64,000 nt of DNA from Cytophagales bacterium CG12_big_fil_rev_8_21_14_0_65_40_12 (lineage in GTDB: Bacteria > Bacteroidota > Bacteroidia > Cytophagales > Cyclobacteriaceae), in NCBI GenBank assembly GCA_002786855.1, contig PCUU01000082.1, positions 1-64,000 of the forward strand, in the 5' to 3' direction. The notes below the pieces were generated by a model that had not been told where the DNA came from, ran no database searches, and saw nothing but the letters and a program-made list of their open reading frames with translations. How positions within the stretch are numbered: the first letter of the stretch is position 1; each line of letters opens with the position of its first letter. The position numbers and the translations under genes were made by a program. Shown one piece after another: positions 721-44,629 of this stretch.

Positions 721-1964
721 CATTTTGAAGGTTGATTGGAGGTTAAAAATTCGTAACTGAATAGTGATTTTTGCAAATTGACCGAGGCATTGAGTGCCGA
801 AAGTTTAAGCTGTAAAATCAGTTGTAGTGTACTTAATAGTTGCTCGAATTGAGTGTTGCTATTGCTATAATCGGCCGTAAGCAGTTTCAGCAATAGCTCT
901 GTTTTTTCTAGCTCCTTTTTATACAATTGTAGTTCTGTATTTGCTCTTTCAAATTCAAAGTTGGCCATTGCCCATTGATTGGTGATTTGATTCTGAACGA
1001 CTTCAATTTGGCTTTTGTAGGCCTCTTGCATAAAGCCTGCTTCCTGCTTTAAGGCTTCATTTTTCTTTCTGAAAATTGGCAAACTTAGACTGATTGTCGG
1101 TGCCAAAATATCCTTTCCATTGTCTTGGATGTTGGGTACATCTCGCTTTTGAATGAAGCCGTATTCCAGCCCTAAACCTAACTTAGGTTTATTGGAAAGC
1201 TCAGCCAGCACCAATTGATGACCTGCAGCCATGATTTGTTCTTGCGAAGCCTTGATGTTTGGATTGTTTTTTAAAGCAGAATCCAATGAAAGATCCATCT
1301 CTTTGTCCGTATTCAATTCAAAATTCAAGTTGATTTGGTCAATGCTCAAAGGAATTTCATTGTTCAAAAGCGTATTGAAGTCACTTAAGAGTGGCTCTCT
1401 TTTTAATTTGAGCAATTCAAGTTGCGTTGTGGCTTCATCAATTTTGATTTGAACCCTGACCAAATCCGCAAGCGAGGCAAGGTTGGATTCGTATTTTGTT
1501 TTCGAAATCGGTTCAAAGGATTTTAGCAATTCTAAGTTGGTAGCATTGATTTTAATTTGCTTTTCAAGCTCATAGAGTGCCAAATAGGAATTTTTGATTT
1601 CCAAAAAGAGCATATTCTTAGCAGCCTGAAATTCTTCAAATTTTACTTGCGCTGACGAAGCCGCCAATTGCTTTTGCTTTGGCAGCGTACCTCGCCAAGG
1701 GAACATTTGTGAAAAACCCGCTTTAAATCTTTGAGCACCCACCCGCGTTTCTACTGGGCTGATGAAGTAACCGAAACTCACAGTAGGGTCTGGCAAACTG
1801 CCTTGCTGCTCCACTTTTTCTAGCGCAGCCAAGTACATGTTGAATTTGGCTTTCAAGCTTGGGTTTTGCAGCGCTGCCTTTTCTAAATACCCGTCTAGCG
1901 GAGTTTGGCTGAATAGGCAGAAGCTTAGTAGACCTAATAAACTTATGATCAATAGTTTTCTCAT
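720..1964 (-). CDS. TolC-family outer-membrane efflux protein
   Basis: This 414-residue protein has a cleavable signal peptide (hydrophobic run ending in FSQ near residue 20). It is followed by the long amphipathic helical repeats typical of TolC/CusC outer-membrane factors (OEP family), including paired Leu/Ala/Glu-rich coiled-coil segments. It would form the trans-outer-membrane duct of the RND pump encoded upstream. Its ATG lies 4 bases inside the 3' end of the acetolactate-decarboxylase-like gene, and its stop overlaps the start of the next lipoprotein gene, so the genes are translationally coupled. No periplasmic adaptor (CusB) is seen in the window; it may lie beyond the left edge. Confidence 0.85.
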   Translation of the reverse strand: MRKLLIISLLGLLSFCLFSQTPLDGYLEKAALQNPSLKAKFNMYLAALEKVEQQGSLPDPTVSFGYFISPVETRVGAQRFKAGFSQMFPWRGTLPKQKQLAASSAQVKFEEFQAAKNMLFLEIKNSYLALYELEKQIKINATNLELLKSFEPISKTKYESNLASLADLVRVQIKIDEATTQLELLKLKREPLLSDFNTLLNNEIPLSIDQINLNFELNTDKEMDLSLDSALKNNPNIKASQEQIMAAGHQLVLAELSNKPKLGLGLEYGFIQKRDVPNIQDNGKDILAPTISLSLPIFRKKNEALKQEAGFMQEAYKSQIEVVQNQITNQWAMANFEFERANTELQLYKKELEKTELLLKLLTADYSNSNTQFEQLLSTLQLILQLKLSALNASVNLQKSLFSYEFLTSNQPSK

Positions 1965-2677
1965 TCTATAGAGCTTTTAGGTAGTGATAAAACCATGGGT
2001 TCTTTTAAAACTAATTGATCAACATGACCCATTTTGGTGATTGAATCATTCACAAAATGAACATGCAAATAGCTGCCATGATGGGTGAAAATTCCTTCAT
2101 GATTTTCAGAATAGAAGCCTAACATTCGTCCATTTTCATTGACCGAGTGCCCTTCGATCCCCGCCTTTTTATAAGCTTCATGGTTTTGTGCTGTGGCTTC
2201 AGCGGCATTGATGATATGCCAGTTTACTTCAGAAAAATTACCTTCCAATATGAATGGGAATGGTTTAGAAGTATCTAATCCTTGAGTTTTGGCCATGGCC
2301 TTAATCGAAGTTTGAAGGCTGGCCAAATCATCAATTGGAGTGTCGAAATTAACTTGAATCCATTCATGGACCACAGCACTTATCGCCAGAATTGCGCCTT
2401 CATTATGATCTCGTTGAATTATTACCTCTCCATTAGACGCCTTACTTAAAATGGGCTGGCTGTCGATAATTATAAATTCGCCAGTCAATTGCTTTAGTGC
2501 GCCAATTGCGTAAAAGTGTTCAGTTTTTTCAAAGTCTTTCAATGAGATGTAAGTATCGAGTTTGTTTTCCATCATGATCTCTCGGAGCACGCCATAGTTT
2601 TCCACTTCGAAAGCAGGTTTTGTTTTTTCACAACTCGAAAGGGCAATGATGAAAATGAGGAAAATATATCTATTCAT
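1961..2677 (-). CDS. Acetolactate-decarboxylase-fold lipoprotein in metal-efflux operon
   Basis: This 238-residue protein begins with a lipoprotein signal (ALSSC, lipid Cys16). The remainder matches the alpha-acetolactate decarboxylase (AlsD/BudA) family by pattern: GALKQLTGEF (residues 59-68), a FILEGNFSEV segment near 143-152, GRMLGFY near 183-189, and HVHF followed by GH (H205, H207, H218). The H-x-H and +11 His spacing equals that of the three zinc ligands of known AlsD enzymes, and E67 matches the Glu before the first strand. The Arg of the usual T-R-T-V segment is absent (WHII here) and the C-terminal Glu-bearing tail is missing, so ordinary decarboxylase activity is doubtful. It overlaps cusA by 8 bases. 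A metal-binding role in efflux is inference. Confidence 0.7.
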   Translation of the reverse strand: MNRYIFLIFIIALSSCEKTKPAFEVENYGVLREIMMENKLDTYISLKDFEKTEHFYAIGALKQLTGEFIIIDSQPILSKASNGEVIIQRDHNEGAILAISAVVHEWIQVNFDTPIDDLASLQTSIKAMAKTQGLDTSKPFPFILEGNFSEVNWHIINAAEATAQNHEAYKKAGIEGHSVNENGRMLGFYSENHEGIFTHHGSYLHVHFVNDSITKMGHVDQLVLKEPMVLSLPKSSIE

Positions 2678-5600
2678 GATTTTCTATTTTGAGTGAAGAT
2701 TTGAATTGGGCTTCCTTGTAATAGGAAAAGAGAACAGGCACTACAAAAAGCGTGATCAATGCGATTAGCATTCCTCCAAATGAAGGAATGGCCATTGGGA
2801 TCATTACATCCGAGCCGCGGCCTGTTGAAGTCAAAACAGGCAGAAGTGCCAGTAGGGTAGTGGCCGTTGTCATTAAACAAGGCTTCACTCTTCTCATTCC
2901 CGCTTCAATTACCAAGCTTTGAATGGCAGTTTTAGTCAGTTTTTGTTTGTCCTTAAATGACTGATCTAAGTAAGTGGCCATTAATACCCCATCATCTGTG
3001 GCAATTCCGAAAAGGGCGATAAAGCCTACCCAAACCGCAACGCTTAAATTGATAGGGCTAATTTGAAAAAGCTCGCGCATGTTTGTTCCGAAAAGATTGA
3101 AATTCAGGAAGCCTTCTTGACCATAGAGCCAAAGCATTAAAAATCCACCGCCAAAAGCCACTGCTACTCCTGAAAAGACCATCAAGGAGACAGGCACCGA
3201 CTTGAATTGGAAATAAAGAATCAAGAAAATAACAGCCAAAACGATCGGTATCACAATCGCCAGACGAGCTTCTGCCCTGAGTTGATTTTCATAATTGCCA
3301 GCAAACTGGAAGGAAACACCCGCAGGAACTTGAAGCTCACCATTCTCTATTTTTTGGTCAATGAGGTTTTGCGCATCATTCACCACATCGGTTTCCGCTT
3401 TGCCAGGAAGCTTATCGAAAATGACATAGCCTACCAAAAAAGTGTCCTCGCTTTTGATCATTTGAGGGCCTCTTGTGTATTCAATTTCGGCTAATTGTCC
3501 CAGCGGAATTTGACCGTTCATTTTGGTTGGAATGAGAATGTTTTTCAAGGCGGCAGGATCGTCTCGGAGTTCTCGAGGATAGCGGACTCTTATTCCGTAG
3601 CGTTCTCGACCTTCCACCGTGGTAGACAATTCCATGCCGCCAATGGCCACTTGAATGTATTGCTGAACTTGCGCTATGCTCAATCCATAAAGCCCTAAAG
3701 CTTTTCTATCTAGATTGATCAATAGGTAGGGTTTGCCCACAATACGTTCTGCAAAAACCGACTGTGCTTTCACAGAAGGAACTTGCTTTAAAATGCCTTC
3801 CAACTCAATTCCAAAGGCTTCAATAGTCGCCAAATCTGGCCCTTTTACTTTGATGCCCATTGGCGCTCTCATGCCAGTTTGCAGCATGATCAATCTGGTT
3901 TCAATAGGTTGAAGCTTAGGTGCAGAGGTTACCCCTGGAAGCTTAGTAGCTTTGATTATTTCATTCCAAATGTCATCTGGCGAATTAATTTCATCTCGCC
4001 ATTGGCGGAAATAGGAGCCGTCTTCATCTGGAATCAGATTGCCTTTCTCGTCTTTCAAAAACTCTCCATCTTCTTTCGCGAAGCGAATTCTTTTCCCGTC
4101 TTCATCGGTCAGGTATTCACTCTTATAATTGATGATATTTTCATACATCGAAATAGGGGCGGGGTCTAAAGCACTTTCCGTTCTACCCAATTTTCCAACC
4201 ACAGATTCCACTTCGGGGATGGCCGCTACGGCCATATCAAGTAAAGCCAAAGTTTCTCGGTTTTGCGCTAAACCTGCATGTGGCATGGAAGTCGGCATTA
4301 AGAGAAATGCTCCTTCATCTAGCGAAGGCATAAACTCTTTTCCGATGCTCGGGAATGTATGATTAAGGCTTGAATAGAGTTTTGAAGTTCTGACCGAGTC
4401 ACCGAATGTACTTGGTATGAATCCAAATACTTTGTCGAAACCTTGCCAAATGGTAATGCCGAGCAAAACGATAAAGACGGGTACGGACAAGAACTTCAAT
4501 CTATTGTTTAAGCACCATTTGAGGATGCTCGGATAGAATTTGATGAAGAGTTTAAAGCTTCCTAAAGTGAAACCAATGATCAATACCACAAAAAGGAAAT
4601 TTACTAATTCACCTGATCGAACACCCAGCGGCATCCATTCTTTACTTAGTAAAATACTGATAGCGATAAGAGCAATAATTACATCACCATGTTTTAGATA
4701 GCCGTCATATTTTGAAGAGAAGTAGCGAATGAGGTTGATTGCTCCCAAGCCTAAAAGCACGAATGCAGCAAGGAAAAGACCGTAGAACAATGAAATGAAA
4801 CCAAGGACAATCACGGCTGAATGAATAATCAGTTTTAATGATTTGTTTTTGGGCTTAATACCGAAAAACCAATAAGCCAAAGTCGGTAGAATGGTCAAGG
4901 CTACTATGATGGCCGCGATTAGCGCAAAACTCTTGGTATAGGCCAGTGGTGAAAATAATTTTCCTTCTGCAGCTTGAAGGGTAAACACTGGTATAAAACT
5001 GACAATGGTGGTCATCACAGCAGTTACTATGGCCGATGAGACTTCTTGGCTAGCATTCAAGATGGTTTTTAGAATGGGCTGGTCTTTATTTTCGTCTAAG
5101 TGCTGAGTTATGTTTTCTGTCAGCACAATCCCAACGTCCACCATGGTGCCAATGGCGATGGCAATACCAGATAAGGCCACAATATTGGCATCTACGCCAA
5201 AATACTTCATGGCGATAAAGCACATCAATACTGCAATTGGCAATAAGCTTGAGATTAAGATTGAAGCCCTTAAATTCATAAGCATAACAAGCACTACGAC
5301 TACGGTGATGATGACTTCGAGGGTTAGCGCTTCGTCTAAAGTGCCGATGGTTTCTTTGATCAGCTTTGTTCTATCATAAAAGGAAACGATGGTAAGCTTT
5401 GATTTGGAGCCATCTGCTAATGTTTTTGAAGGTAGACCAGCACTAATTTCTTCGATTTGAACCTTTACATTATCAATGACTTCTAAAGGATTGGCACCAT
5501 ATCTTGCTACTACTACACCACCAACGGCTTCTGCACCAGATTTATCCAAGGCTCCTCTGCGGCCTTCCGGGCCAAGGCTGACCCTAGCAATGTCCTTGAT

Positions 5601-6428
5601 TCTAATTGGCGTATTGCCGTTCACTTTGACTACGGCTTCTTCTAAATCAGAAAGACTTTTGATATAACCCAAGCCCCTTACTAAGTATTCCGCTTTATTG
5701 ATTTCAAGCGTTTTGGCACCTACATCGAGGTTAGATTCTCTTACGGCTTTGGCGACTTCATCTAAAGACACCCCATAACCTTGCATGGCATTTGGGTCGA
5801 CATCAATTTGGTATTCCTTAACGAAACCACCAACCGATGCTACTTCTGCAACGCCTTCAGCCGAAGCCAAAGCATATCGCACAGTGTAGTCTTGCACAGA
5901 TCGAATTTCTTGCGGATCCCAGCCTCCACTTGGACTGCCTTGCTTATCTCTTCCTTCAATAGTATACCAATATATTTGACCTAAAGCAGTCGCGTCTGGA
6001 CCTAAAACGGGTTGGACTCCAGCGGGTAATATTCCTTGTGGTAGTGAATTGAGCTTTTCTAGAATTCTACTTCTGCTCCAATAAAACTCAATGTCTTCGT
6101 TGAAAATGATGTATATCGAAGACACACCAAAAATGGACGAGCTTCGAATCGTTTTCACTCCTGGAATCCCCAAAAGTGTTGATGTCAGCGGATAGGTAAT
6201 CTGGTCATCAATGTCTTGCGGAGAGCGACCGACCCATTCTGTGAATACGATTTGCTGATTTTCACCAATGTCAGGAATGGCATCCACAGGCACGGGATCA
6301 CTTGGCAAACCAAGACTTTGAGACCAATTGAATGGAGCTGTAACTAAGCCCCATGCGATTAGGCCAACCAGCATGATGAATGTTACCAAACGGTTTTCTA
6401 GAAAAAATTTAATAAGGGTATTGATCAT
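2670..6428 (-). CDS. cusA: CusA/CzcA-type heavy-metal efflux RND transporter
   Basis: This inner-membrane proton-driven pump of the HME-RND class has 1252 residues, against roughly 1040 for the usual family member. It shows the RND plan: TM1 at residues 12-30, a periplasmic porter domain, a TM bundle with the charged TM4 segment (IGTMVDVGIVLTEN, about 427-440), a second porter domain (EFMPSLDEGAFLLMP) and a C-terminal TM bundle. Two insertions account for the extra length: about 523-632 with four extra hydrophobic segments between the two halves, and an acidic insertion after the ALDPAPISMYENIINYK segment. Start ATG at 6426-6428. It is the second gene of the cluster, after the HYC_CC_PP gene. 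Metal specificity (Cu/Ag versus Co/Zn/Cd) cannot be fixed by eye. Confidence 0.92.
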   Translation of the reverse strand: MINTLIKFFLENRLVTFIMLVGLIAWGLVTAPFNWSQSLGLPSDPVPVDAIPDIGENQQIVFTEWVGRSPQDIDDQITYPLTSTLLGIPGVKTIRSSSIFGVSSIYIIFNEDIEFYWSRSRILEKLNSLPQGILPAGVQPVLGPDATALGQIYWYTIEGRDKQGSPSGGWDPQEIRSVQDYTVRYALASAEGVAEVASVGGFVKEYQIDVDPNAMQGYGVSLDEVAKAVRESNLDVGAKTLEINKAEYLVRGLGYIKSLSDLEEAVVKVNGNTPIRIKDIARVSLGPEGRRGALDKSGAEAVGGVVVARYGANPLEVIDNVKVQIEEISAGLPSKTLADGSKSKLTIVSFYDRTKLIKETIGTLDEALTLEVIITVVVVLVMLMNLRASILISSLLPIAVLMCFIAMKYFGVDANIVALSGIAIAIGTMVDVGIVLTENITQHLDENKDQPILKTILNASQEVSSAIVTAVMTTIVSFIPVFTLQAAEGKLFSPLAYTKSFALIAAIIVALTILPTLAYWFFGIKPKNKSLKLIIHSAVIVLGFISLFYGLFLAAFVLLGLGAINLIRYFSSKYDGYLKHGDVIIALIAISILLSKEWMPLGVRSGELVNFLFVVLIIGFTLGSFKLFIKFYPSILKWCLNNRLKFLSVPVFIVLLGITIWQGFDKVFGFIPSTFGDSVRTSKLYSSLNHTFPSIGKEFMPSLDEGAFLLMPTSMPHAGLAQNRETLALLDMAVAAIPEVESVVGKLGRTESALDPAPISMYENIINYKSEYLTDEDGKRIRFAKEDGEFLKDEKGNLIPDEDGSYFRQWRDEINSPDDIWNEIIKATKLPGVTSAPKLQPIETRLIMLQTGMRAPMGIKVKGPDLATIEAFGIELEGILKQVPSVKAQSVFAERIVGKPYLLINLDRKALGLYGLSIAQVQQYIQVAIGGMELSTTVEGRERYGIRVRYPRELRDDPAALKNILIPTKMNGQIPLGQLAEIEYTRGPQMIKSEDTFLVGYVIFDKLPGKAETDVVNDAQNLIDQKIENGELQVPAGVSFQFAGNYENQLRAEARLAIVIPIVLAVIFLILYFQFKSVPVSLMVFSGVAVAFGGGFLMLWLYGQEGFLNFNLFGTNMRELFQISPINLSVAVWVGFIALFGIATDDGVLMATYLDQSFKDKQKLTKTAIQSLVIEAGMRRVKPCLMTTATTLLALLPVLTSTGRGSDVMIPMAIPSFGGMLIALITLFVVPVLFSYYKEAQFKSSLKIENHE

Positions 6429-34954: not shown

Positions 34955-35422
34955 ATGATCGAACCTAACCTTACAGAATTCGGTACCATCCTGATTTTTA
35001 TCATGGGTGGAATCTTGTTCGTTACCGTGGGTTTATTCGTTGCCAAATTAATCCGTCCCAATAGACCTAACTACGAAAAACTGACTACATACGAGTCGGG
35101 AGAAGAAACCATAGGCACCGCTTGGGGTCAGTTCAACATCAAATTTTACATTGTAGCACTCATATTTTTATTGTTCGAAGTAGAGATCATTTACTTATTC
35201 CCTTGGGCGATTATTTTTGGAGATAAAGCATTAATTGAAGGAACAGATTATGCTTGGGCTTGGTTTGCCATTACCGAGATGTTTATCTTCATTTTTGTGT
35301 TGGCTTTAGGGCTGGCCTACGCTTGGAGAAAAGGTTATTTGGACTGGGTGAGACCAATGAACAAGGTTTCAGATTTCAAATCGCCCATTCCGACTGGGGC
35401 TTATAATCATTTGAAAAAATAG
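34955..35422 (+). CDS. nuoA: NADH-quinone oxidoreductase subunit A
   Basis: This 155-residue membrane subunit of complex I has three TM helices, at about 8-30, 62-84 and 100-125. The conserved loop [40 protein letters not shown] contains the family residues near the quinone cavity. It has a C-terminal extension beyond the usual end. Its stop overlaps the GTG of nuoB by one base. Confidence 0.95.
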
Positions 35423-35943
35423 TGGGACTGCTAGATCAACAATTGGGAAAGGGTGGAATCATCATCACCAAGTTAGAAGACCTAATCAATTGGGCCAGAC
35501 TCTCTTCCATGTGGCCAATGGCTTTTGGTACAGCTTGTTGCGCCATTGAATTCATGGGTGCCCAATCTACTCCTTATGATCTCGACCGTTTCGGTATCGT
35601 TCCTTTTGCCAGTCCTCGCCAAGCCGATGTAATGATTGTGGCAGGAACTGTCACTTTTAAAATGGCAGACCGCGTTCGAAGACTTTATGAGCAAATGGCT
35701 GAGCCTCGCTATGTCATCTCGATGGGCTCTTGTTCCAATTGCGGAGGCCCTTATTGGGAGCATGGCTACCACGTGGTGAAAGGTGTAGATAGAATTATTC
35801 CTGTCGATGTATATGTACCTGGTTGCCCACCACGGCCAGAAGCATTGATTGGGGGTTTATTAAAGCTTCAGGAAAAAATTAGAGGAGAAAGTATCGTTGC
35901 CCCAAAGGCGATTGAAAGGTTGTTAGCCAAAAAAGCAGTTTAA
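35422..35943 (+). CDS. nuoB: NADH-quinone oxidoreductase subunit B
   Basis: This 173-residue peripheral-arm subunit carries cluster N2, the last Fe-S centre before quinone. Ligand motifs are [10 protein letters not shown] (adjacent Cys pair), SCSNCGG and PGCPPRPE. Start is GTG at 35422-35424 within TAGTG, overlapping the nuoA stop. In other genomes nuoC follows directly; here a two-gene insertion begins 30 bases after its stop. Confidence 0.97.
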
Positions 35944-35973
35944 ATTTTTTATCTTTCTTAAAACATTAGTACA

Positions 35974-37002
35974 ATGGCCAAAGAAGATCATTTAATTAAG
36001 TTCCAAGTTCAGAATTTTAAAAGGTTTAAAAATCTGAGCTTAGAAAACCTTGGGCAGTTTAATCTTATTGTTGGGGACAATAATGTTGGTAAGACTTCGG
36101 TCTTAGAAGCTTTGCTGTATGATGATCAACTCGATAAGTTTTCTATGAACTTGTATAAGGCACTTTCTTATAAAAACCTTGGAGGAGAATACAAGGAGGG
36201 TCATTTTAGTTTCTTTGTCAATAAAGCTAGTCTGTTAGAATCAAGTGAAGATGTTAGAGTGGAATATTTTTGCCAGAAAGCAAAAAATAAGAATAGTGAT
36301 TGGGGAATGGGTGATACCTTTCTTTTTAAAAGAAACGGGAATCTGGTTAGAATAAATGAGGTCTTTGAAGAAGATAGAACTCTGGAGGCACTAAGAGATA
36401 ATAAGCATGAGATATTGGAGCCCATTTCTTTAATTCCTTTTTCAGTTTCATATGGGAAAGAACTGATGGATATATATTCTAAAACCTTCATTAGAGATAG
36501 GGCTGCAAAAAAGCAGCTCATTAATATTTTATCACCATTAATTCCTTCGATTGAAGATTTGGAAATGGATACTGCTATAACTGACTATCCTGTTTTAGTA
36601 GTTGCTAAGAAGGGGATTGACTTTGTAGTTCCTTTAGTGAGTTATGGAGATGGTACAGTCAAGTTATTTCGTTTACTCATGTTTCTCATTCTTTTTCGTG
36701 GTCAACGCCTAATGATCGATGAAATTGATACTGGAATCCACTATTCTAGAATGAAGGATTTTTGGAGAACAATTCTTAAGGCTGCGGAAGAAAATGAAGT
36801 TCAACTTTTTGTAACCACCCATAATCAAGAGTGCATTCGTTATTTCAAAGAAGTTTTGGAGGAAAATGGAATGGAGCACCTCCAAAAAGAGGCCAGAACA
36901 ATTACTTTGGTTGAGAGTGCAAAGACTAAAGATATTAAAGCTATTACTTCTGGCTTCGAGGAGTTGGACTATTCTCTCACCGTTGGCAATGAAATCAGAT
37001 GA
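35974..37002 (+). CDS. AAA_21/OLD-like ATPase of a putative two-gene defence module
   Basis: This 342-residue protein has an ABC-type ATPase with no TM segments: KFQVQNFKRFKN at the N-terminus, Walker A GDNNVGKTS (34-42), a SYGDGTVKLFRLL signature-like motif (223-235), Walker B RLMIDEIDTGIHY (245-257) and an H-loop VTTHNQE (280-286). This layout is that of AAA_21/AAA_15 ATPases such as RloA, AbiLi, OLD and PARIS AriA, which work with nuclease partners. The next gene, overlapping by ATGA, encodes a TOPRIM protein. The pair interrupts nuoB-nuoC. Its DNA is visibly richer in A/T and in AGA codons than the nuo genes. A defence role is inference. Confidence 0.8.
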   Translation: MAKEDHLIKFQVQNFKRFKNLSLENLGQFNLIVGDNNVGKTSVLEALLYDDQLDKFSMNLYKALSYKNLGGEYKEGHFSFFVNKASLLESSEDVRVEYFCQKAKNKNSDWGMGDTFLFKRNGNLVRINEVFEEDRTLEALRDNKHEILEPISLIPFSVSYGKELMDIYSKTFIRDRAAKKQLINILSPLIPSIEDLEMDTAITDYPVLVVAKKGIDFVVPLVSYGDGTVKLFRLLMFLILFRGQRLMIDEIDTGIHYSRMKDFWRTILKAAEENEVQLFVTTHNQECIRYFKEVLEENGMEHLQKEARTITLVESAKTKDIKAITSGFEELDYSLTVGNEIR

Positions 37003-37574
37003 CCCAAATACGGATAATTGTTGAAGGAGAATCGGATAGAAAGTTTCTTAAAGATTACATTAAGCATTCTTTTGAAAAGGAATTGAGTAATGATGACTTT
37101 ATCATTGCATCTGGTAATTTATTGAGTAAACCAGCGAATTCAATACAAAGAAACACCATTGAGGGTGGGATTAATATTACTGTGCTTGATGCGGATACAG
37201 ATATTGAAGGAACTAGGAATAGAGTTTCTCGTGAGATTCAAGAGTTTGATTTGATGATTGATAATCAATTCTATATTCCAAATGATGACCAGCCCGGCAA
37301 TTTAGAAACACTTCTCAGAAGAATAATTAATGAAGAGAGGGGGGGTATATTGGATTGTATAGATCAGTATGGTCGGTGTATTGAAACTCACAGAATCGCT
37401 GAACTAAGAAAGTTTGATGAGAAGGCTAAAGTTTTCGTTTACGTAGATTCCTTTGCTGTAGGAGGCCAAGGAAAACCTGATCAAGTGGATTACAGAGAAC
37501 TTTTACTTTGGAATCTTGATTCCGAATATCTTAGACCCCTTTATGATTTTCTTCAACCTTATTTTAGCGAATGA
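36999..37574 (+). CDS. TOPRIM/DUF3226-like putative nuclease effector
   Basis: This 191-residue protein has TOPRIM-fold signatures: IIVEGESDRKFL (catalytic-type Glu9), VLDADTD (D64-x-D66) and PNDDQPGNLETLL (94-106, acidic cluster typical of DUF3226 and RloB relatives). The C-terminus contains KVFVYVDSF and a YF-rich helix. TOPRIM partners of AAA_21 ATPases act as DNA or tRNA nucleases in abortive anti-phage systems. The start overlaps the ATPase gene (ATGA), and its stop overlaps the nuoC start in the same way, so the effector is translated in line with complex I. Exact family and activity are inferred. Confidence 0.75.
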   Translation: MTQIRIIVEGESDRKFLKDYIKHSFEKELSNDDFIIASGNLLSKPANSIQRNTIEGGINITVLDADTDIEGTRNRVSREIQEFDLMIDNQFYIPNDDQPGNLETLLRRIINEERGGILDCIDQYGRCIETHRIAELRKFDEKAKVFVYVDSFAVGGQGKPDQVDYRELLLWNLDSEYLRPLYDFLQPYFSE

Positions 37575-38056
37575 CTTTCCAAGCAATTGTAGATCATATC
37601 AAATCCAATCTTGATGAGCAAGTCATCATTTCAATCGATGAAAATGCTTCGCCAAAGGCCATAATTATGGATAGGCAAAATTTGATTGAAGTGATGTCAT
37701 TCCTTCAGTCGGACGATCAACTTTATTTCGATTCGCTTTCTTGTATCACGGGCTTAGATAATGGCCCTGAAGAGAACAGCATGGAGGTAATTTATAATCT
37801 CTATTCCATTCCTTTCAACCATCATTTAATGGTCAAGGTAGAGCTAGAAAGAGAAAATCCGGCCATTGATTCCTTAACGGGTCTCTGGAAAACTGCCGAT
37901 TGGCATGAACGAGAAGCGTATGATCTTTTTGGGATTCATTTCAATAATCACCCAGATTTACGCAGGATTTTGCTTCCGGCAGATTGGGAAGGTTTCCCTT
38001 TGAAAAAGGACTATCAACAACAAGAATATTATCGCGGAGTAAAAGTTGAATATTAA
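37571..38056 (+). CDS. nuoC: NADH-quinone oxidoreductase subunit C
   Basis: This 161-residue complex I 30-kDa subunit homologue is not fused to NuoD. Family motifs are DSLTGLWKTADWHEREAYDLFGIHFNNHPDLRRILLPADWEGFPLKKDY near the C-terminus. The ATG overlaps the TOPRIM gene's stop (ATGA), so translation may depend on ribosomes finishing the inserted module. nuoD follows with no gap. Confidence 0.96.
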   Translation: MTFQAIVDHIKSNLDEQVIISIDENASPKAIIMDRQNLIEVMSFLQSDDQLYFDSLSCITGLDNGPEENSMEVIYNLYSIPFNHHLMVKVELERENPAIDSLTGLWKTADWHEREAYDLFGIHFNNHPDLRRILLPADWEGFPLKKDYQQQEYYRGVKVEY

Positions 38057-39274
38057 GTGGCCAAGGAAATTCAATACATATTCGACCAAGAGAACCTGAG
38101 AAAATCGGAACCTCAAAAGTTAAGGGAGCAAGCCCTGAAGCGAGAGGAAGTGATAATCAATATAGGACCGCAGCACCCTTCTACGCATGGTGTGCTTAGA
38201 CTCGAAGTATTGGCCCGTGGAGAAGAAGTCATTGAGGTAATTCCGCACATAGGCTATCTCCACCGTTGTTTTGAAAAGCACGCAGAGAACCTTCCTTACA
38301 ACCAAATTATTCCCTTCGTTGATCGAATGGATTACTTGGCGGCAATGAATACTGAACATGCCTATGCGATGGGCGTAGAGCGCATGTTGGGCATTGAAGA
38401 GGATATTCCTAAAAGAGTGGAGTACATCCGAGTGCTTGTGGCGGAGTTGAACAGACTCGCTTCTCATTTTATCGCCATTGGTTCCTATGGCATGGATATC
38501 GGAGCGGTGACGGCTTTCTTTTGGATGACAAGGGACAGGGAGCATATCGTAAGGCTCTTAGAATGGGCCTCTGGCGCTCGAATGCTCTATAATTACATTT
38601 GGGTTGGTGGCTTGTTTTACGACCTTCCTGTGGGTTTTGAAGAGCGCTGTAAAGAATTCACTACTTACTTAAAACCCAAGCTTAAAGAGCTAGAAAGGGT
38701 GCTCATTGATAATAAGATTTTTGTGGACAGAACAGCTAATGTTGGTGTTTTGCCTTTGGACTTAGCCATTAATTACGGTATTACTGGCCCAATGCTCAGA
38801 GGTTCGGGCTTGAATTATGATCTGAGAAAGATCGATGGTTATTCCATTTATCCTGAAATCGACTTTGACATTCCAGTAGGAAAAGGAGCCATGGGCACAA
38901 CAGGCGACTGTTGGGACAGGACTTGGGTGAGGATGCAAGAATGTTTCGAGTCCATTAAAATCGTTGATCAGTGTATCGATAAGCTCACGACTGATCATAA
39001 ACGCGATAGAGATTTCGATCCAAGGGCGCTTGTGCCAAAGAAAATTAGACCTAAAGCTCAGGATTTATATGTGAGGGCTGAAAATCCAAAAGGAGAAACA
39101 GGCTTTTTCTTTCGAGCAGATGGCCGATCCGATATTCCTTTTAGATGTAAGGCCAGGGGCGCAAGCTTTGTCAATCTCTCCATCATCAATGAACTCGCCA
39201 AAGGTGGACTAATCGCTGATTTAATTGCGGTGATAGGCTCGATTGATATCGTTTTAGGCGAGGTGGATCGCTAA
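38057..39274 (+). CDS. nuoD: NADH-quinone oxidoreductase subunit D
   Basis: This 405-residue complex I 49-kDa subunit homologue lines the quinone site. Motifs are NIGPQHPSTHGVLRLEVLARGEEV, IGYLHRCFEKHAENLPYNQ and GDCWDRTWVRMQECFESI, with a C-terminal FVNLSIINELAKGGLIADLIAVIGSIDIVLGEVDR ending. The start is GTG at 38057-38059, directly after the nuoC stop. No nuoE, nuoF or nuoG follows: the next gene runs in the opposite direction, and the rest of the nuo set resumes at 44740. Confidence 0.97.
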   Translation: MAKEIQYIFDQENLRKSEPQKLREQALKREEVIINIGPQHPSTHGVLRLEVLARGEEVIEVIPHIGYLHRCFEKHAENLPYNQIIPFVDRMDYLAAMNTEHAYAMGVERMLGIEEDIPKRVEYIRVLVAELNRLASHFIAIGSYGMDIGAVTAFFWMTRDREHIVRLLEWASGARMLYNYIWVGGLFYDLPVGFEERCKEFTTYLKPKLKELERVLIDNKIFVDRTANVGVLPLDLAINYGITGPMLRGSGLNYDLRKIDGYSIYPEIDFDIPVGKGAMGTTGDCWDRTWVRMQECFESIKIVDQCIDKLTTDHKRDRDFDPRALVPKKIRPKAQDLYVRAENPKGETGFFFRADGRSDIPFRCKARGASFVNLSIINELAKGGLIADLIAVIGSIDIVLGEVDR

Positions 39275-39301: not shown

Positions 39302-40042
39302 CTAATTCGGAAGTCTTTGAATGTTGTTTTCCCTTATGAAAGCTCGACCGGATTTCCACTTAATTTCCAGCCAGATATCTTTTTTGCCCACAATTTCAAC
39401 TTTATGGCCTTCCCCAGTAATCTCTATTAAATCACTACCTGCCGAAGGGCCAGTCATTAAATAGGTGTTGGCAGAGTTAATGATTCCTTTTGGAGCAAGT
39501 TGAGAAAAGTTGATCAGCAAGAAGGCCACAAGGGCAATGGAAAGAAGCCCAAAAGATAAGCCAATGGACCTTTCGTTTAGTTTTTTCTTTCTCTTAAAAA
39601 TCATGGAAAGGATCAAAATGCCAAGTGCCAAAGTGATTAGGATAAAGTAATTGCGGTGCTCGTCATAGAATTTCAGAAAGAGGTCAAAGTCGTTGGTAGA
39701 GTAACCTTCAAGACTATGCGTTTGGGCCAGTTCAGTCATTTTTGTCAGTACCTTTTTGTCTGAGGTGAGCATGTAATAGCTGTTCAAAGCATAAAGCGCA
39801 TTGCTCAAGTCTTCTAGACTTTCGTAAATGAAGGCCATTTTTAGAAGCATCGCTGGGGAAGCTTGCTGCTCTTCTCGGGCTATTTTTTCATATAAAGTCA
39901 GCGATTGCGTATATCTTTTCTGTTGGAAAAGGGAATCGGCTGTTTTTAATTCTTCTTTAAAACCCTGAGAATAAGCGGTTTCAAGAAATGAAATAAGACC
40001 TAGAAAAAGGAATATTAGAATTTTAAAATTTCGGTTTTGCAT
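39302..40042 (-). CDS. BatE-like TPR protein with C-terminal SH3 domain
   Basis: This 246-residue protein has a signal peptide (to about SAYSQ, residue 26), two or three TPR units (30-110), two TM helices (about 132-148 and 162-180) and a periplasmic SH3b-like domain (GPSAGSDLIEITGEGHKVEIV...WKSGRAFI). The same order occurs in BatE proteins of the aerotolerance locus. Its stop faces nuoD. Its start region overlaps the tRNA-Lys promoter on the other strand. It is not followed by other bat genes. Confidence 0.75.
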   Translation of the reverse strand: MQNRNFKILIFLFLGLISFLETAYSQGFKEELKTADSLFQQKRYTQSLTLYEKIAREEQQASPAMLLKMAFIYESLEDLSNALYALNSYYMLTSDKKVLTKMTELAQTHSLEGYSTNDFDLFLKFYDEHRNYFILITLALGILILSMIFKRKKKLNERSIGLSFGLLSIALVAFLLINFSQLAPKGIINSANTYLMTGPSAGSDLIEITGEGHKVEIVGKKDIWLEIKWKSGRAFIRENNIQRLPN

Positions 40043-40066
40043 TTAAATATTTACGTCTTACCTTTG
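40036..40066 (+). promoter_or_regulatory. Consensus promoter of tRNA-Lys
   Basis: TTTG (40036-40039), 19 bases, then TACCTTTG (40059-40066): an exact Bacteroidota promoter 47 bases before the tRNA. It overlaps the first codons of the divergent TPR/SH3 gene. Confidence 0.85.
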
Positions 40067-40113
40067 CAGTCGCAATTAAGGAAAACGCCCTTAATCGAAC
40101 AAGAAAACATGTT

Positions 40114-40186
40114 GATTTGGTAGCTCAGCCGGTAGAGCATCTCCCTTTTAAGGAGAGGGTCCTGGGTTCGAATCCCAGCCAGATCA
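40114..40186 (+). tRNA. tRNA-Lys (anticodon TTT)
   Basis: The 73-base cloverleaf has acceptor stem GATTTGG/CCAGATC, a D arm (GCTC...GAGC), anticodon stem TCTCC/GGAGA with loop CTTTTAA (anticodon TTT at 40147-40149) and a T arm CTGGG-TTCGAAT-CCCAG. The discriminator base is A; CCA is not encoded. It has its own promoter and terminator. Confidence 0.97.
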
Positions 40187-40190
40187 CTAG

Positions 40191-40220
40191 AAAAAGCCTC
40201 GGTAAAATGAGGCTTTTTTT
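40191..40220 (+). terminator. Terminator after tRNA-Lys
   Basis: AAAAAGCCTC (40191-40200) pairs with GAGGCTTTTT (40209-40218) followed by T, beginning 5 bases after the tRNA 3' end. Confidence 0.9.
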
Positions 40221-40388
40221 GTGCCCTAGGCTAAAAAAAACTGCCGTCACGAAGTTAAGCAGCGAGGTTTGAGTTTTATTACCTTTCACATTAATTAACA
40301 GTTTTCAGCCAAAATATTTTTCTGATTTTTTGGAAGCAAAAATTCTTTTGTTCCGATTTTTCCTTAGTTTTAAATTTATTCGAAACTT

Positions 40389-40931
40389 TTGAAGAGAATC
40401 CCAGCCATATTATTGTTAGTCTGCCTAGGTATTTACCAATTTGGATACTATGCGGCTGATTTTTCTGTTGGCCTTCGTATTGAAAAGAAATGGTCGGATA
40501 GGATTTTTAGTGAGGAGGGTGAATACGAAAATTCATTTGTGATGAATATCCCTATTGATGTCCCTTACATGCCTAACGATCAAGATTTTAAAGTGGTCAA
40601 CTCATCTTTTGAAAAGGACGGGCAATTTTTTAGAGTATTGGAACAGCGCTACCGAGATGGTAATCTTCAATTGGTTGTAGTGGCAGATACTTATAAGAGC
40701 AATTTGGAAGTGTTGATCAAGGATTGGATCGATGCCAATGCATCCGATATTGAAGGTAATTTAATGTCCAAATCACCATTGAAAGTATTGACCAATCAGT
40801 ACACACCAACGAATGAATTTAAATTGCTTCTTTCTTCAATCATGGAGGGTGAAAATTCGTTTGGTGATAAAGCCAGTGAAATTTATTCAAGCCGCTTGCA
40901 GGATACTCCTGCACAACCTCCAGAAGCTTAA
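40389..40931 (+). CDS. Exported protein of unknown function
   Basis: This 180-residue protein starts at TTG (40389-40391), the only start that keeps the full hydrophobic N-terminus (MKRIPAILLLVCLGIYQFGYYAADF). It reads as a signal anchor or uncleaved signal peptide. The body is acidic and soluble-looking, with no recognised domain, and the C-terminus is Pro-rich (QDTPAQPPEA). A 9-bp stem-loop without a T-run follows (40935-40958). It lies between tRNA-Lys and an outer-membrane protein gene. Function unknown. Confidence 0.55.
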   Translation: MKRIPAILLLVCLGIYQFGYYAADFSVGLRIEKKWSDRIFSEEGEYENSFVMNIPIDVPYMPNDQDFKVVNSSFEKDGQFFRVLEQRYRDGNLQLVVVADTYKSNLEVLIKDWIDANASDIEGNLMSKSPLKVLTNQYTPTNEFKLLLSSIMEGENSFGDKASEIYSSRLQDTPAQPPEA

Positions 40932-41201
40932 TAATCAATAAGTTTGAATACTTATTGACTCTTCACAATGAAGAATGATCAACTCTCTGCGTATTGCATT
41001 GAGTATTGCTGTACTTCATTGATCCCTTTCCTTCTCCTTATGGCATACAAATGTTGCATTGGATAATATTATTTTATTATTCGTCATTTTTTTGCGCACG
41101 CTACTAAGGTTCAAGGATTTTTCAAAACTAGTTTAAGTGTTGCCGTGTATCCCTGCACAATGGATATGGGTTTCGCTTACGGTCATAATTAATTTTTTAA
41201 A

Positions 41202-42134
41202 ATGCTGAAACTTAATCTAACAATCACATTCCTGCTTTTTGCAGTAGGGCTCGTGGGGCAAACGCCTAGTGACGCCATCATGATGGAATCCAAAGTGGTA
41301 TGTATTCTATTTGAATATAACTATGGTCAATTCGATCAATATTGGGAAGGGCCATCTATTAGAGAAAATCAAACCATCGCCACAGTAAAAAGGAATACTG
41401 TCCTTCCAATGATGGCCGTAGGTGTAGTCAAAAACCTCAACTTATTTGTTGGCTTGCCTTATATCAAGACTGAGTCGTCCGATCCCAACGGAGGGAAGTT
41501 TGCAGGAGCAAGCGGTCTCCAAGATTTGACAGTGGCAGTAAAGTATAAAGCTTTCGAAAAGAAGACCGCAAGAGGGGAGTTAAGAGTCCTAGGAACGGTC
41601 AGCTTTTCCACGCCTGCCTCCAATTATTTACCCGATTACATGCCTTACAGCCTCGGGGCTGGAGCACCTGAATTGGCCTATAGGGCCATTGGCCAATATA
41701 CTTTTAATAGTGGCTTCTATGTAAGAGGGGCCGGCACCTATCTATGGAAAGGCTATGCTAAGGCAGAACGAGAATACTATTATAATAATGGCAGTTTTTA
41801 TACCTCCTGGATGGATGTGCCCAATGCCATTACAGCTGAAGGTATTTTTGGGAAGAAATTTCTGGATGGCTCACTTCAAGTAGAGCTAAATTACTTAAAA
41901 ACCCAATCCTTAAGTGGTGATGATATCAGGGCTTATAATTCACCTCAGCCGACAAACAAAGTTAATATGGACAGAGTAGGGATCTCGGCTCATTACTATT
42001 TTCCGAAAATAGAGGGCTTAGGCATTGGGCTATATCATCATAGCGTCATCAATGGCAGGAATGCACCCAAAATCAGCACATCTGGCATTGGGCTTACTTA
42101 TTTTTTTAACTACCTAAAAAGAGAATCACTATGA
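41202..42134 (+). CDS. Outer-membrane beta-barrel protein paired with the haloperoxidase-like gene
   Basis: This 310-residue protein has a signal peptide (cleavage near LVGQT, residue 21). Repeated amphipathic strands with aromatic girdles and Gly turns (GVVKNLNLFVGLPYI, YFNYL at the end) indicate an outer-membrane barrel of the transporter/meta-pathway-porin type. It overlaps the following haloperoxidase-like gene by 4 bases (ATGA), so the two products are made together. It could admit substrate or retain the lipoprotein at the outer membrane; that is inference. The 270-base region before it shows no clear promoter. Confidence 0.7.
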   Translation: MLKLNLTITFLLFAVGLVGQTPSDAIMMESKVVCILFEYNYGQFDQYWEGPSIRENQTIATVKRNTVLPMMAVGVVKNLNLFVGLPYIKTESSDPNGGKFAGASGLQDLTVAVKYKAFEKKTARGELRVLGTVSFSTPASNYLPDYMPYSLGAGAPELAYRAIGQYTFNSGFYVRGAGTYLWKGYAKAEREYYYNNGSFYTSWMDVPNAITAEGIFGKKFLDGSLQVELNYLKTQSLSGDDIRAYNSPQPTNKVNMDRVGISAHYYFPKIEGLGIGLYHHSVINGRNAPKISTSGIGLTYFFNYLKRESL

Positions 42135-43672
42135 GACAGTCGATATATAAAGTATTCAGCATTTTAATTCTGTCGGGCTTTGTTGCCTGCGAAAAGGAAT
42201 TGCCGACCTTCTTAGAGTTCGAAAGTGTTCAATTCTCATCCGTTGATGCAACAGCAGGTAATTGGACTCCTATCTTGTTGGGCAGCGGAGCAGATATAGC
42301 TATACCAGCTCCATCCGAGGTCAATTCTTCGGCATATTTAGCTGAGTTATCGGCATTAGAAACAGCCATTGGACAGAAGACCAAAGCCGACCAACAGGCA
42401 ATTGATTATTGGATGGACAGTCCAGTGGTGAGGTGGAATGAAATTGCCCTAGAGCTCATTGCCAAATACAACATTATTCCAGGGCCAAATGCGGACGGAA
42501 CCTATACTCTGCCTAATCCAAATACTCCTGATGGGCCACCGGCTTTTCCTTTTTCGCACCCGCCCTATGCATCTAGAGTTTTAGCCTATCTTTCGGTAGC
42601 TCAATTTGATGGTCTTATTTCAGCTTGGCACCACAAGTTCAGTTTTAATCGGGCTGCCCCCTTTAAACAGAGCGCCAACATTCAATACAATTTTCAAGAC
42701 AATAATATTCCTTCTTATCCATCGGAAGGTGCTGTGGTTGCGGCTGTCTCTAGAAAAATTCTCTCCGCTATGTTTCCTCTCGAAGTGGACTACTTGGCAG
42801 AAAAGGAGGAAGAGCACTATAGAAGTTTGTTACTGTCAGGAGGAAATGTAAGTAGTGATATCGAGGCGGGTAAAACTATTGGCAACGCCATTAGTACGCT
42901 TGCTTTGGCAAGAGCCTCAGGAGATGGAATGAGCAAAGCGCAAGCGCCAAAAGCAGTTTCCGATTCGATTGCTAATGCAGCTTTTGAAAGATTTGGATGG
43001 AAATGGATCAATTTGGAACTTCCACAGCGTCCTGTTGGCCTTACCCCACTTTTTGGCAAGGTGCAAATGTGGAATGTGCTCAATGTTGAAGACACCCGAC
43101 CAATTGCCCCTCCTGCCGTTGGTTCTGCAGAATATTTAGCGGATGTAGCCATTCTAAACGATTATGCTGATAATGTTACCGAGGAAAGAAGGCGGATCGC
43201 CAACTTCTGGCAAGATGGATTAGGAACATACACTCCGCCTGGACATTGGAACGAATTTGCCAAAGAGTTCATAGTCAAGTACAAACAAAATCCAATTAGA
43301 GCAGCCCGCACTTTTGCCTATCTCAATATGGCAATGATGGATGGGGGTATCAGTTGTTGGGATGCTAAATATTATTACCATTATCCACGACCCATTCAGA
43401 CAATCGAGGGATTCAAAACCATTGCGGGAACCCCTAATTTTCCCTCATATACCTCTGGTCATAGTGTTTTTTCAGCAGCTGGAGCCGAAGTATTGGCTTA
43501 TATCTTCCCTCAAAAGGCCAATCAGGTCAGAGATTGGGCAGAAGAAGCTGCAATCTCAAGGGTTTATGGAGGAATTCACTGGACTTTTGACGCTTATATA
43601 GGAACGGATCAAGGTAAAGATGTGGCCCAATACACGGTGAATAGGGCGCAAGCAGATGGTGCCGACAATTAA
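42131..43672 (+). CDS. Vanadium-dependent haloperoxidase / PAP2-superfamily lipoprotein
   Basis: This 513-residue protein has a lipoprotein signal (GFVACE, lipid Cys about 20). The C-terminal PAP2-type site is complete: K413 to R420-P421 (KYYYHYPRP), PSYTSGHS (438-445) and SRVYGGIHW with R477 and H483, which correspond to the phosphate/vanadate-binding residues of vanadate haloperoxidases and acid phosphatases. The N-terminal half is helical, as in bacterial vanadium haloperoxidases. It could oxidise halides or act as a phosphatase; sequence alone does not decide. It is coupled to the barrel gene and followed by a terminator. Confidence 0.82.
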   Translation: MRQSIYKVFSILILSGFVACEKELPTFLEFESVQFSSVDATAGNWTPILLGSGADIAIPAPSEVNSSAYLAELSALETAIGQKTKADQQAIDYWMDSPVVRWNEIALELIAKYNIIPGPNADGTYTLPNPNTPDGPPAFPFSHPPYASRVLAYLSVAQFDGLISAWHHKFSFNRAAPFKQSANIQYNFQDNNIPSYPSEGAVVAAVSRKILSAMFPLEVDYLAEKEEEHYRSLLLSGGNVSSDIEAGKTIGNAISTLALARASGDGMSKAQAPKAVSDSIANAAFERFGWKWINLELPQRPVGLTPLFGKVQMWNVLNVEDTRPIAPPAVGSAEYLADVAILNDYADNVTEERRRIANFWQDGLGTYTPPGHWNEFAKEFIVKYKQNPIRAARTFAYLNMAMMDGGISCWDAKYYYHYPRPIQTIEGFKTIAGTPNFPSYTSGHSVFSAAGAEVLAYIFPQKANQVRDWAEEAAISRVYGGIHWTFDAYIGTDQGKDVAQYTVNRAQADGADN

Positions 43673-43736
43673 AAGCATACGAAAAATTTAAATCAAGAAT
43701 CAAAGATCATACATACAATCAATTTGGTTTATAAGG

Positions 43737-43775
43737 CCCACTGTCAGGTGCAATCGACAGTGGGTCTATTTTTTT
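43737..43775 (+). terminator. Terminator after the haloperoxidase-like gene
   Basis: CCCACTGTC (43737-43745) pairs with GACAGTGGG (43756-43764) and is followed by TCTATTTTTTT. It lies inside the longest murI frame, which is one reason to start murI later. Confidence 0.85.
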
Positions 43776-43819
43776 ACCAGTGCCTGTTTTCAATCTACAT
43801 TAATTCAAATACCTTAGCC

Positions 43820-44629
43820 ATGATGAATAAAGGGAACCCAATAGGTATTTTCGATAGTGGAATGGGCGGGCTGACTGTGGCCCATGCAGTTAAAAATCTG
43901 CTTCCCAACGAGCAGATCATTTATTTTGGTGACAGTGCACATTTGCCCTATGGTGATAAATCTGCAGCTACCATTCAGGCCTACTCTATCAAAATCTGTG
44001 ATGTACTTCTGCAGCACAATTGCAAGGTGATTTTAATTGCTTGTAACTCTGCTTCGGCTGCGGCCTTTGAATTGGTGAAAGCTTATGTGGGCAGTAAAGC
44101 TCAAGTAATGAATGTTATTGATCCTGTTGTTGAGTATGTTGGAGAGAAATACTCAAATGCTAAAATTGGTTTGATTGGAACGAAGCAAACAGTAGGTTCT
44201 GGCGTTTATGCTCAAAAAATAGCTGCAAGAAATGCATCAATTACTTTGGGTGCTTTGGCTACACCTTTATTGGTGCCTATGATCGAAGAAGGGTTCTATA
44301 AAAATGAGATTTCGGAACAGATCATCAATCAGTACCTCGAAAAGCCAGAATTAGAAGACATTAAAGCACTGATCCTTGGTTGTACCCATTATCCTTTGAT
44401 TAAAAAACAGGTTTCGGATTTCTACGCCAACGCAATTGAGATCATAGACTCTTCCGTAATAGTAGCAAAAGCATTGCAAGCACTTTTGGCTTATCATAAC
44501 CTGGTTTCGAAAGAAAAACTGACCAAAAATAGATTCTTGGTTTCAGATTTTACCCCCTCTTTTCAATTGGCAGCCGAGCTCTTTTTTCAAGAAGAAATCA
44601 ATCTAGAAAAACATATTCTTTGGGAATAG
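43820..44629 (+). CDS. murI: Glutamate racemase
   Basis: This enzyme converts L- to D-glutamate for peptidoglycan. Start at the ATG at 43820 (MMNKGNPIGIFDSGMGGLTV) gives 269 residues, the family length; an earlier in-frame start would read through the upstream terminator. The catalytic cysteines lie in IACNSASA (C75) and LGCTHYP, and the N-terminal FDSGMGGLT motif carries the catalytic Asp. A TACCTTAG at 43810-43817 is a weak -7-like match. It sits between the haloperoxidase-like gene and nuoH. Confidence 0.95.
   Translation: MMNKGNPIGIFDSGMGGLTVAHAVKNLLPNEQIIYFGDSAHLPYGDKSAATIQAYSIKICDVLLQHNCKVILIACNSASAAAFELVKAYVGSKAQVMNVIDPVVEYVGEKYSNAKIGLIGTKQTVGSGVYAQKIAARNASITLGALATPLLVPMIEEGFYKNEISEQIINQYLEKPELEDIKALILGCTHYPLIKKQVSDFYANAIEIIDSSVIVAKALQALLAYHNLVSKEKLTKNRFLVSDFTPSFQLAAELFFQEEINLEKHILWE

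Follow-up and report, generated by a model that had tools for sequence, protein, structure and literature searches.

How do genes that resemble an antiphage system come to lie seamlessly inside the operon for respiratory complex I, and what might they do there? The question is raised by a stretch of 64,000 nucleotides (nt) from Cytophagales bacterium CG12_big_fil_rev_8_21_14_0_65_40_12 (Bacteroidota, Cyclobacteriaceae; assembly GCA_002786855.1, contig PCUU01000082.1, positions 1 to 64,000 of the forward strand), hereafter the window. In it, a gene for an ATP-binding cassette (ABC)-type ATPase and a gene for a TOPRIM-type putative nuclease stand between nuoB and nuoC, in the order nuoA-nuoB-ATPase-TOPRIM-nuoC-nuoD and all on the same strand. 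The two open reading frames (ORFs) and both ATGA joints, at 36999-37002 (ATPase/TOPRIM) and 37571-37574 (TOPRIM/nuoC), were confirmed as an earlier note on this DNA had described them. By profile the pair is AbiL-type, and the comparisons below support the view that it is an acquired guest in the nuo operon. We consider it probable that the two genes form an AbiL/PARIS-like defence cassette, a guest of core operons, which acts through a latch and sensor and exchanges alleles through its flanks. The features of the locus are as follows.

34955..35422, + strand: nuoA
35422..35943, + strand: nuoB, the upstream flank, 82-93% identical to nuoB of 18 congeners
35944..35973, + strand: gap of 30 nt between the nuoB stop and the ATPase start
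35974..37002, + strand: ABC-type ATPase of the AAA_15/AAA_21 kind, AbiLi-like, 342 amino acids (aa)
36136..36453, + strand: approximate middle of the ATPase (about residues 55-160), inferred counterpart of the hypervariable part of nuoE|F alleles and candidate sensor
36999..37574, + strand: TOPRIM-type putative nuclease, DUF3226, AbiLii-like, 191 aa; its start overlaps the ATPase stop (ATGA)
37571..38056, + strand: nuoC, the downstream flank; its start overlaps the TOPRIM stop (ATGA)
38057..39274, + strand: nuoD

The middle segment was assigned from alleles of other species and from the low model confidence at residues 101-150.

Relatedness of the two proteins to defence systems

The ATPase matched the Pfam families AAA_15 (4e-19) and AAA_21 (4e-18), both of which the earlier note had proposed to search, as well as SMC_N (1e-10). 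Among the PADLOC models, AbiLi (PDLC02336) ranked highest at 1e-43 over residues 9-342 of 342, followed by PDC-M38A (8e-42) and AriA (7e-23), and the best GajA match reached 4e-11; all NCBIfam matches fell far below their cut-offs. Every one of the 48 aligned ATPases, that of the window among them, matched AbiLi and PDC-M38A at 1e-10. The predicted catalytic motifs on which the identification had been based proved to be conserved in the same alignment, with Walker A (GDNNVGKT, residues 34-41), Walker B (D249, E250) and the H-loop histidine (H283) invariant or at least 90% conserved. The structural model (mean predicted local distance difference test score, pLDDT, 86.6; poor at residues 101-150) matched 217 chains of the PDB at E<=1e-3, the best folds being Septu and retron PtuA, with SMC heads, Rad50 heads and retron Eco8 next. 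Kinship to AbiL/PARIS/OLD-type defence ATPases, as had been suggested, is supported.

The partner matched DUF3226 at 1.5e-10, above the family cut-off, and this was its sole Pfam match up to E=1; DUF4435, which had been named as another candidate, gave no match up to that value, and 6 of the 49 aligned partners matched it at 0.01. At the same threshold, 48 of these 49 matched DUF3226 and 10 matched OLD-like_TOPRIM. The PADLOC matches were AbiLii (PDLC02338, 2.8e-7, residues 60-188), PDC-M38B (1e-5) and a fused AriAB model (0.028), with no AriB match listed, and NCBIfam gave no match. No Rlo-named family appeared among the Pfam, PADLOC and NCBIfam matches up to E=1, the presence of a RloB model in these libraries not having been checked. 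In TOPRIM domains, a glutamate follows strand 1 and a DxD motif follows strand 3. The partner has this placement by conservation and by model position: E9, D64 and D66, the acidic residues previously pointed out, are invariant across the 49 aligned partners (that of the window among them), as are D13 and E103, and in the model (mean pLDDT 93.3) E9 comes after strand 1 and D64/D66 at the end of strand 3. Weak PDB matches of the model included the OLD nuclease 6p74 at rank 5 (probability 0.54) and PARIS 8ux9 at rank 8 (0.30).

Comparison with named systems places the pair closest to AbiL, a Lactococcus abortive infection system, which likewise consists of an ATPase followed by an adjacent small partner and whose two models both match; the likeness is to the PADLOC models rather than to the original Lactococcus proteins, and the window pair differs in residing inside a core operon. 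PARIS (AriA/AriB) also has an ABC ATPase and a TOPRIM protein encoded by separate adjacent genes, and split pairs of this kind have been placed in a proposed OLD class 4 (excerpts of PMC10568477 and PMC12796447); however, the window ATPase scores far lower with AriA than with AbiLi, below PDC-M38A too, and its partner is a DUF3226 protein with just the marginal AriAB match. Both proteins match PDC-M38, which is a PADLOC candidate system whose name was not found in the one open-access library searched. Some relatives carry the ATPase behind a UvrD-like helicase, recalling Gabija (GajA with the UvrD-like helicase GajB), whereas in the window the TOPRIM domain is on a separate gene, no helicase adjoins and the neighbours are nuo genes, so that the locus does not classify as Gabija. 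In five relatives (L081, L084, L088, L091 and L146), the ATPase forms the C-terminal part of a long ORF followed by a TOPRIM gene, and a UvrD-like helicase lies ahead of the ATPase in both of the two that were scanned. Two of the five are titled Campylobacterota.

Occupied and empty junctions in core operons

The pair stands out from the window in composition. Of the 58 ORFs that reach 120 aa, the ATPase gene has the lowest GC content and the TOPRIM gene the second lowest, and in GC at third codon positions (GC3) the TOPRIM gene ranks lowest and the ATPase gene second lowest. The AT-rich look that had suggested acquisition is therefore borne out, whereas the different use of arginine codons is real but modest (AGR codons in 23/30 for the pair versus 423/746 over all 58 ORFs, the pair included). 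A separate promoter or terminator for the pair was considered and rejected, since site counts in the cassette region were near shuffled expectation: 11 promoter-like matches against a mean of 8.0 in shuffles (standard deviation, sd, 2.8; about 1 sd above), none of them in the 30-nt gap between nuoB and the ATPase gene, and 2 terminator-like matches against 2.4 (sd 1.8).

Presence of the pair among relatives is patchy. All 18 congeners searched have nuoC directly after nuoB and lack the TOPRIM protein; in the near-relative sample, this protein was found in 2 of 59 genomes, the window's own included. The second carrier, Marinoscillum furvescens DSM 4134, likewise has the pair between nuoB and nuoC, ATPase first, and its TOPRIM gene is joined to nuoC by ATGA as in the window. 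A survey of the family gave matches at 1e-25 in 16 of 390 genomes. In six of these, each from a different genus, the match is at nuoB|C: the window, M. furvescens, G139, G292, G345 and G178, hence five genera beyond the window's. The remaining ten are distant ATPases or lie elsewhere, several in one neighbourhood of the genus g18. For control, 60 regions downstream of nuoB were picked by hand among the matches listed, siblings of carriers included. No pair match was found in these 60 regions: nuoC lies at most 35 nt from the nuoB stop, or overlaps it by extrapolation, in 54, at 86 nt in one, and at 338-406 nt in three, where no same-strand ORF was seen, while two have no nuoC. Absence from all congeners searched, together with the AT-rich composition, supports acquisition. 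Of the outcomes that the earlier note had named as refuting its reading, neither was observed: some relatives lack the pair, and the TOPRIM residues are conserved. That residence in a respiratory operon protects the cassette from loss, as had been proposed, is doubtful, for most relatives examined have their nuo genes in place and an empty site.

The junction nuoB|C is one of several. A two-row ATPase alignment was used as the query for a scan of 84,980 species genomes, and the best 80 of 85 relatives were examined; the scan requires exact short peptides, which four other nuoB|C carriers are without. Nineteen of these 80 loci are downstream of nuoE, with nuoF on the far side in 18 and the contig of L109 ending first. 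The pair of L114 is separated from nuoE by a DUF4349 gene, and L112 has a broken ATPase frame. Other nuo places were nuoB|C (one locus, L067) and nuoF|nuoG (one locus, L098, from a Chitinophagales metagenome-assembled genome, MAG), and in one more locus (L129) the copy starts after nuoF and runs off the contig. Seventeen of the 18 loci titled Flavobacteriales are at nuoE, the exception being L063; the other two nuoE loci are L114, titled Sphingobacteriales (MAG), and L110, titled Limnohabitans, which has Flavobacterium-like nuo genes and is probably misbinned. Nine of the best 80 loci lie downstream of metH (by tblastn), and among the loci listed, further same-strand neighbours were recognised by reading as groES-type, gatB, carboxylase and peptidase genes. 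A general habit of living inside core neighbourhoods seems to be indicated, with nuo the commonest home found here.

Empty sites at nuoE|F are nearly gapless. A NuoE search matched 56 of 61 Flavobacterium genomes, and 30 best loci were examined, of which one was the query carrier; the gap between nuoE and nuoF is 4-7 nt in all 29 pair-less loci (by alignment 4 nt in 28 and 7 nt in one). Carriers are rare in each sample: 2 of 150 Flavobacterium genomes at 1e-20 and 2 of 118 Chryseobacterium genomes at 1e-25 (the query genome included in both cases), and 6 of 395 genomes of the phylum at 1e-50, including nuoB|C (the window), nuoE|F (G879) and places outside nuo.

Several further observations concern the nuo regions themselves. 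In the window, about 5.5 kb of unrelated genes (39302-44629), among them murI-like and phosphatase-like ORFs named by reading, part nuoABCD from nuoH-like (44740) and nuoI-like (45765) ORFs, and Flavobacterium queries at 1e-3 found no nuoE, nuoF or nuoG in the 64 kb. Behind nuoE, Flavobacterium covae (L112, about 5000-6028) has an ATPase ORF of 204 aa with the TOPRIM gene intact, and Flavobacterium sp. NK2020 (L106, 6116-6472) has a TOPRIM ORF shortened to 118 aa. Different guests also occur. Another nuoB|nuoC guest is a membrane-like ORF of 240 aa on the opposite strand (L032, genome G031, 663-1382, minus) without a Pfam match at 0.001. In L195 (G247, 220-1284, minus), an RlaP (RNA repair) gene lies directly downstream of nuoB, with no nuoC within the 2.9 kb read. 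In L202 (G212, 1187-2086, minus), Pfam identified a RES toxin with an Xre/MbcA/ParS antitoxin-like gene directly downstream of nuoC, in the expected place of nuoD, and no nuoD was present within the 2.9 kb read. In five genomes of the family (L157, L177, L159, L160 and L179), a gene for a 23S_rRNA_IVP (four-helix) protein separates nuoC from nuoD, recognised by Pfam in two of them and by eye in the others; ORF positions are 747-1175 in L157 and 1872-2252 (minus) in L177. Uma2-type putative endonuclease genes are present at nuoC/nuoD in L114 (784-1380) and at nuoD/nuoE in L129 (1394-1987), and an ORF6N-domain gene directly follows nuoH in Flavobacterium cheongpyeongense (L104, 10281-10865).

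Allele mosaics at nuoE|F and entries into the operon

Between close species, the nuoE|F cassette can vary strongly inside nearly constant surroundings: where the flanks are 94-100% identical, identity can fall to about 20% in the ATPase middle and to 30% in the TOPRIM protein. F. salmonis and F. cheongpyeongense share 98% of NuoE and 100% of NuoF but 73% of the ATPase and 32% of the TOPRIM protein; for F. sp. UGB4466 and F. hydrocarbonoxydans the values are 98%, 98%, 40% and 31%. In two Chryseobacterium loci (L101 and L113) the partner was kept (NuoE 94%, NuoF 98%, ATPase 54%, TOPRIM 88%). Median identities were 76 for nuoE, 87 for nuoF, 45 for the ATPase and 34 for the TOPRIM gene in a comparison of 15 loci (105 pairs) that all have a confirmed nuoE upstream, L106 being excluded for its TOPRIM ORF of 118 aa. 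Ten pairs were compared in blocks: identity is 87-100% over the first 50 ATPase columns and drops in the lowest middle block to 18-26% in nine pairs and to 44% in the tenth, and the end of the ATPase is a mosaic. In all 21 pairs of seven Flavobacterium loci, codon agreement at identical residues is higher in the first 50 ATPase codons than in nuoE/nuoF. The nuoE|F site thus appears to be a hypervariable locus, and a mosaic cassette between near-identical flanks fits allele exchange through flank homology.

An ATPase tree of 75 rows was obtained by a quick search. Left out of it were duplicates from genomes that were represented already (L134-L136, L139, L141-L143, L152), copies that are truncated or broken (L107, L112, L120, L122-L124, L129) and distant ATPases (L125, L128, L130-L133, L147-L151), and the five long fused ORFs were trimmed to the ATPase end. 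The 19 nuoE|F rows, among which the identical rows L113 and L153 count twice, form one clade (99*), as do the seven metH rows (100*), and the nuoB|C rows are split over two parts of the tree. A single origin of all nuo copies was rejected (p-AU 0.018, in a set containing the long branches L098 and L114), which suggests that the nuo operon was entered at least twice.

Possible functions and modes of inheritance

In the explanation that we favour, the pair would be transcribed with the nuo genes and need no promoter of its own. In PARIS, the TOPRIM toxin is retained by the ATPase until a phage trigger sets it free to cut tRNA (PMC11455837). By analogy, the ATPase may keep the TOPRIM nuclease inactive as a latch, and a phage product meeting its variable middle would release the nuclease, which would then cut nucleic acid (host tRNA in PARIS, the tRNA cleavage by its TOPRIM subunit AriB being known from excerpts of PMC12409363); growth would stop and the infection would be aborted. 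Homologous recombination would be the main source of new alleles, with the nuo genes on either side and the conserved first ~50 ATPase codons serving as arms. Conserved flanks have been proposed as an exchange route for the core defence hotspots of Pseudomonas aeruginosa, which likewise hold variable defence genes between fixed core genes; those hotspots are islands (cDHS1 has a median of 26 kb), whereas here a scarless two-gene cassette lies inside an operon (excerpts of PMC10250203).

A defence function is nevertheless inferred, and a number of points weigh against the explanation as a whole. PADLOC names are assigned by similarity, and for defence islands the neighbours of relatives were read by eye, among the loci listed. 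The partner model has no PDB fold at E<=1e-3, and its profile found nothing below 0.1 among PDB sequences. As for exchange, the codon signal at the ATPase start has p<0.05 in 12 of the 21 pairs, which are non-independent, and a drop in GC3 after codon 50 (28/28 loci) was dropped as proof of recombination, amino-acid make-up not being controlled. The tree is not the best obtainable, since constraining the window to group with M. furvescens, without or with G139, raised the likelihood by 11.7 or 12.4, respectively, above the free tree, and L098 and L114 are long branches in it. Matches of the window ATPase to mobile elements are few: one plasmid match at 1e-10 (Acinetobacter, 28.7%) among 72,556 records, two partial phage matches at 1e-5 among 50,697 records, and two N-terminal P-loop matches in IMG/VR. 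An origin from mobile elements is weakly disfavoured by these counts, although the collections may hold few Bacteroidota elements.

The experimental precedent for AbiL cuts two ways. According to excerpts of PMC3985639, AbiLii of F. nucleatum is toxic in E. coli, and AbiLi failed to relieve that toxicity, so that a simple latch is not supported. Toxicity would suit a selfish, toxin-antitoxin-like addiction module with the TOPRIM protein as toxin and the ATPase as regulator, settled in core operons that are well expressed and hard to lose and with defence as a side effect, and other guests of nuo operons include the RES-Xre pair and the 23S_rRNA_IVP genes. The same failure of AbiLi to neutralise its partner argues against such a module, as does the site being empty in most relatives examined, and an ATPase middle that is hypervariable is more in keeping with an arms race; we regard this module as unlikely. 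About equally improbable is a single ancient insertion at nuoB|C within the family, inherited vertically and often lost, with no special exchange at the junction. A single nuoB|C clade was not rejected (p-AU 0.17), which allows one old entry with many losses at this junction, and ATPase identity among nuoB|C copies is uniformly 35-49%. However, many independent and precise losses would be needed, given the congeners and the 54 control junctions in which nuoC comes directly after nuoB; the nuoB|C rows also lie apart in the short-search tree, and the nuoE|F mosaic suggests exchange.

Service to complex I itself, as an assembly, quality-control or energy-sensing module or as a guard against phage attack on the complex, appears very improbable. 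Copies at three nuo junctions (B|C, E|F and F|G), in a set whose monophyly is rejected, might be read in its favour, yet most relatives examined have nuo genes without the pair, and a hypervariable middle and partner are unlike an assembly factor. Relatives beside metH and other core genes argue further against a respiration-specific role. The earlier proposal that the cassette could monitor complex I expression or energy state is accordingly not supported, and such sensing as the reason for the nuo placement is weakened: because the family also occurs in non-respiratory neighbourhoods, the placement is better explained by common expression and common flanks than by a signal from respiration. 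Hardly more credible is a DNA-repair or housekeeping ATPase of the SMC/RecF kind with a TOPRIM partner and no link to defence. The SMC_N match and the SMC and Rad50 heads among the PDB folds point that way, and an archaeal OLD ATPase has a role in the cell cycle and apparently none in defence (excerpts of PMC12796447), a precedent that also counts against the cassette reading; still, the best profiles are defence ATPases, though PADLOC holds defence models only, and such patchiness and variability are not expected of a housekeeping protein.

The pair itself is of a known kind. As far as searches of one open-access library tell, what is new is its seamless, repeated and hypervariable life inside complex I operons; these searches, with nuo partly judged by title, found no published report of DUF3226 with an ATPase or of defence genes in nuo or housekeeping operons. 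Defence genes are usually sought in islands, prophages and plasmids, and an island-based search would miss a scarless pair in a textbook core operon, so that core junctions such as nuoB|C, nuoE|F, nuoF|G and the region downstream of metH are worth inspecting for other guests. The nuoE|F alleles amount to a natural experiment, in which flanks and the first 50 codons are near-identical, the middle differs and the nuclease partner often differs; with this contrast, the phage-sensing part of such ATPases could be tested by allele swap. Tentatively, and without quite leaning towards it, we raise the possibility that the nuo operon of Bacteroidota is a recurrent immune locus, where populations exchange hypervariable ATPase sensors and TOPRIM effectors at the fixed and otherwise nearly gapless sites B|C, E|F and F|G, with the neighbouring nuo genes and the first ~50 conserved codons as arms, and nuo provides defence with a promoter and a recombination scaffold. 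Core complex I operons seem, in any case, to be recurrent homes for fast-changing defence-type genes.

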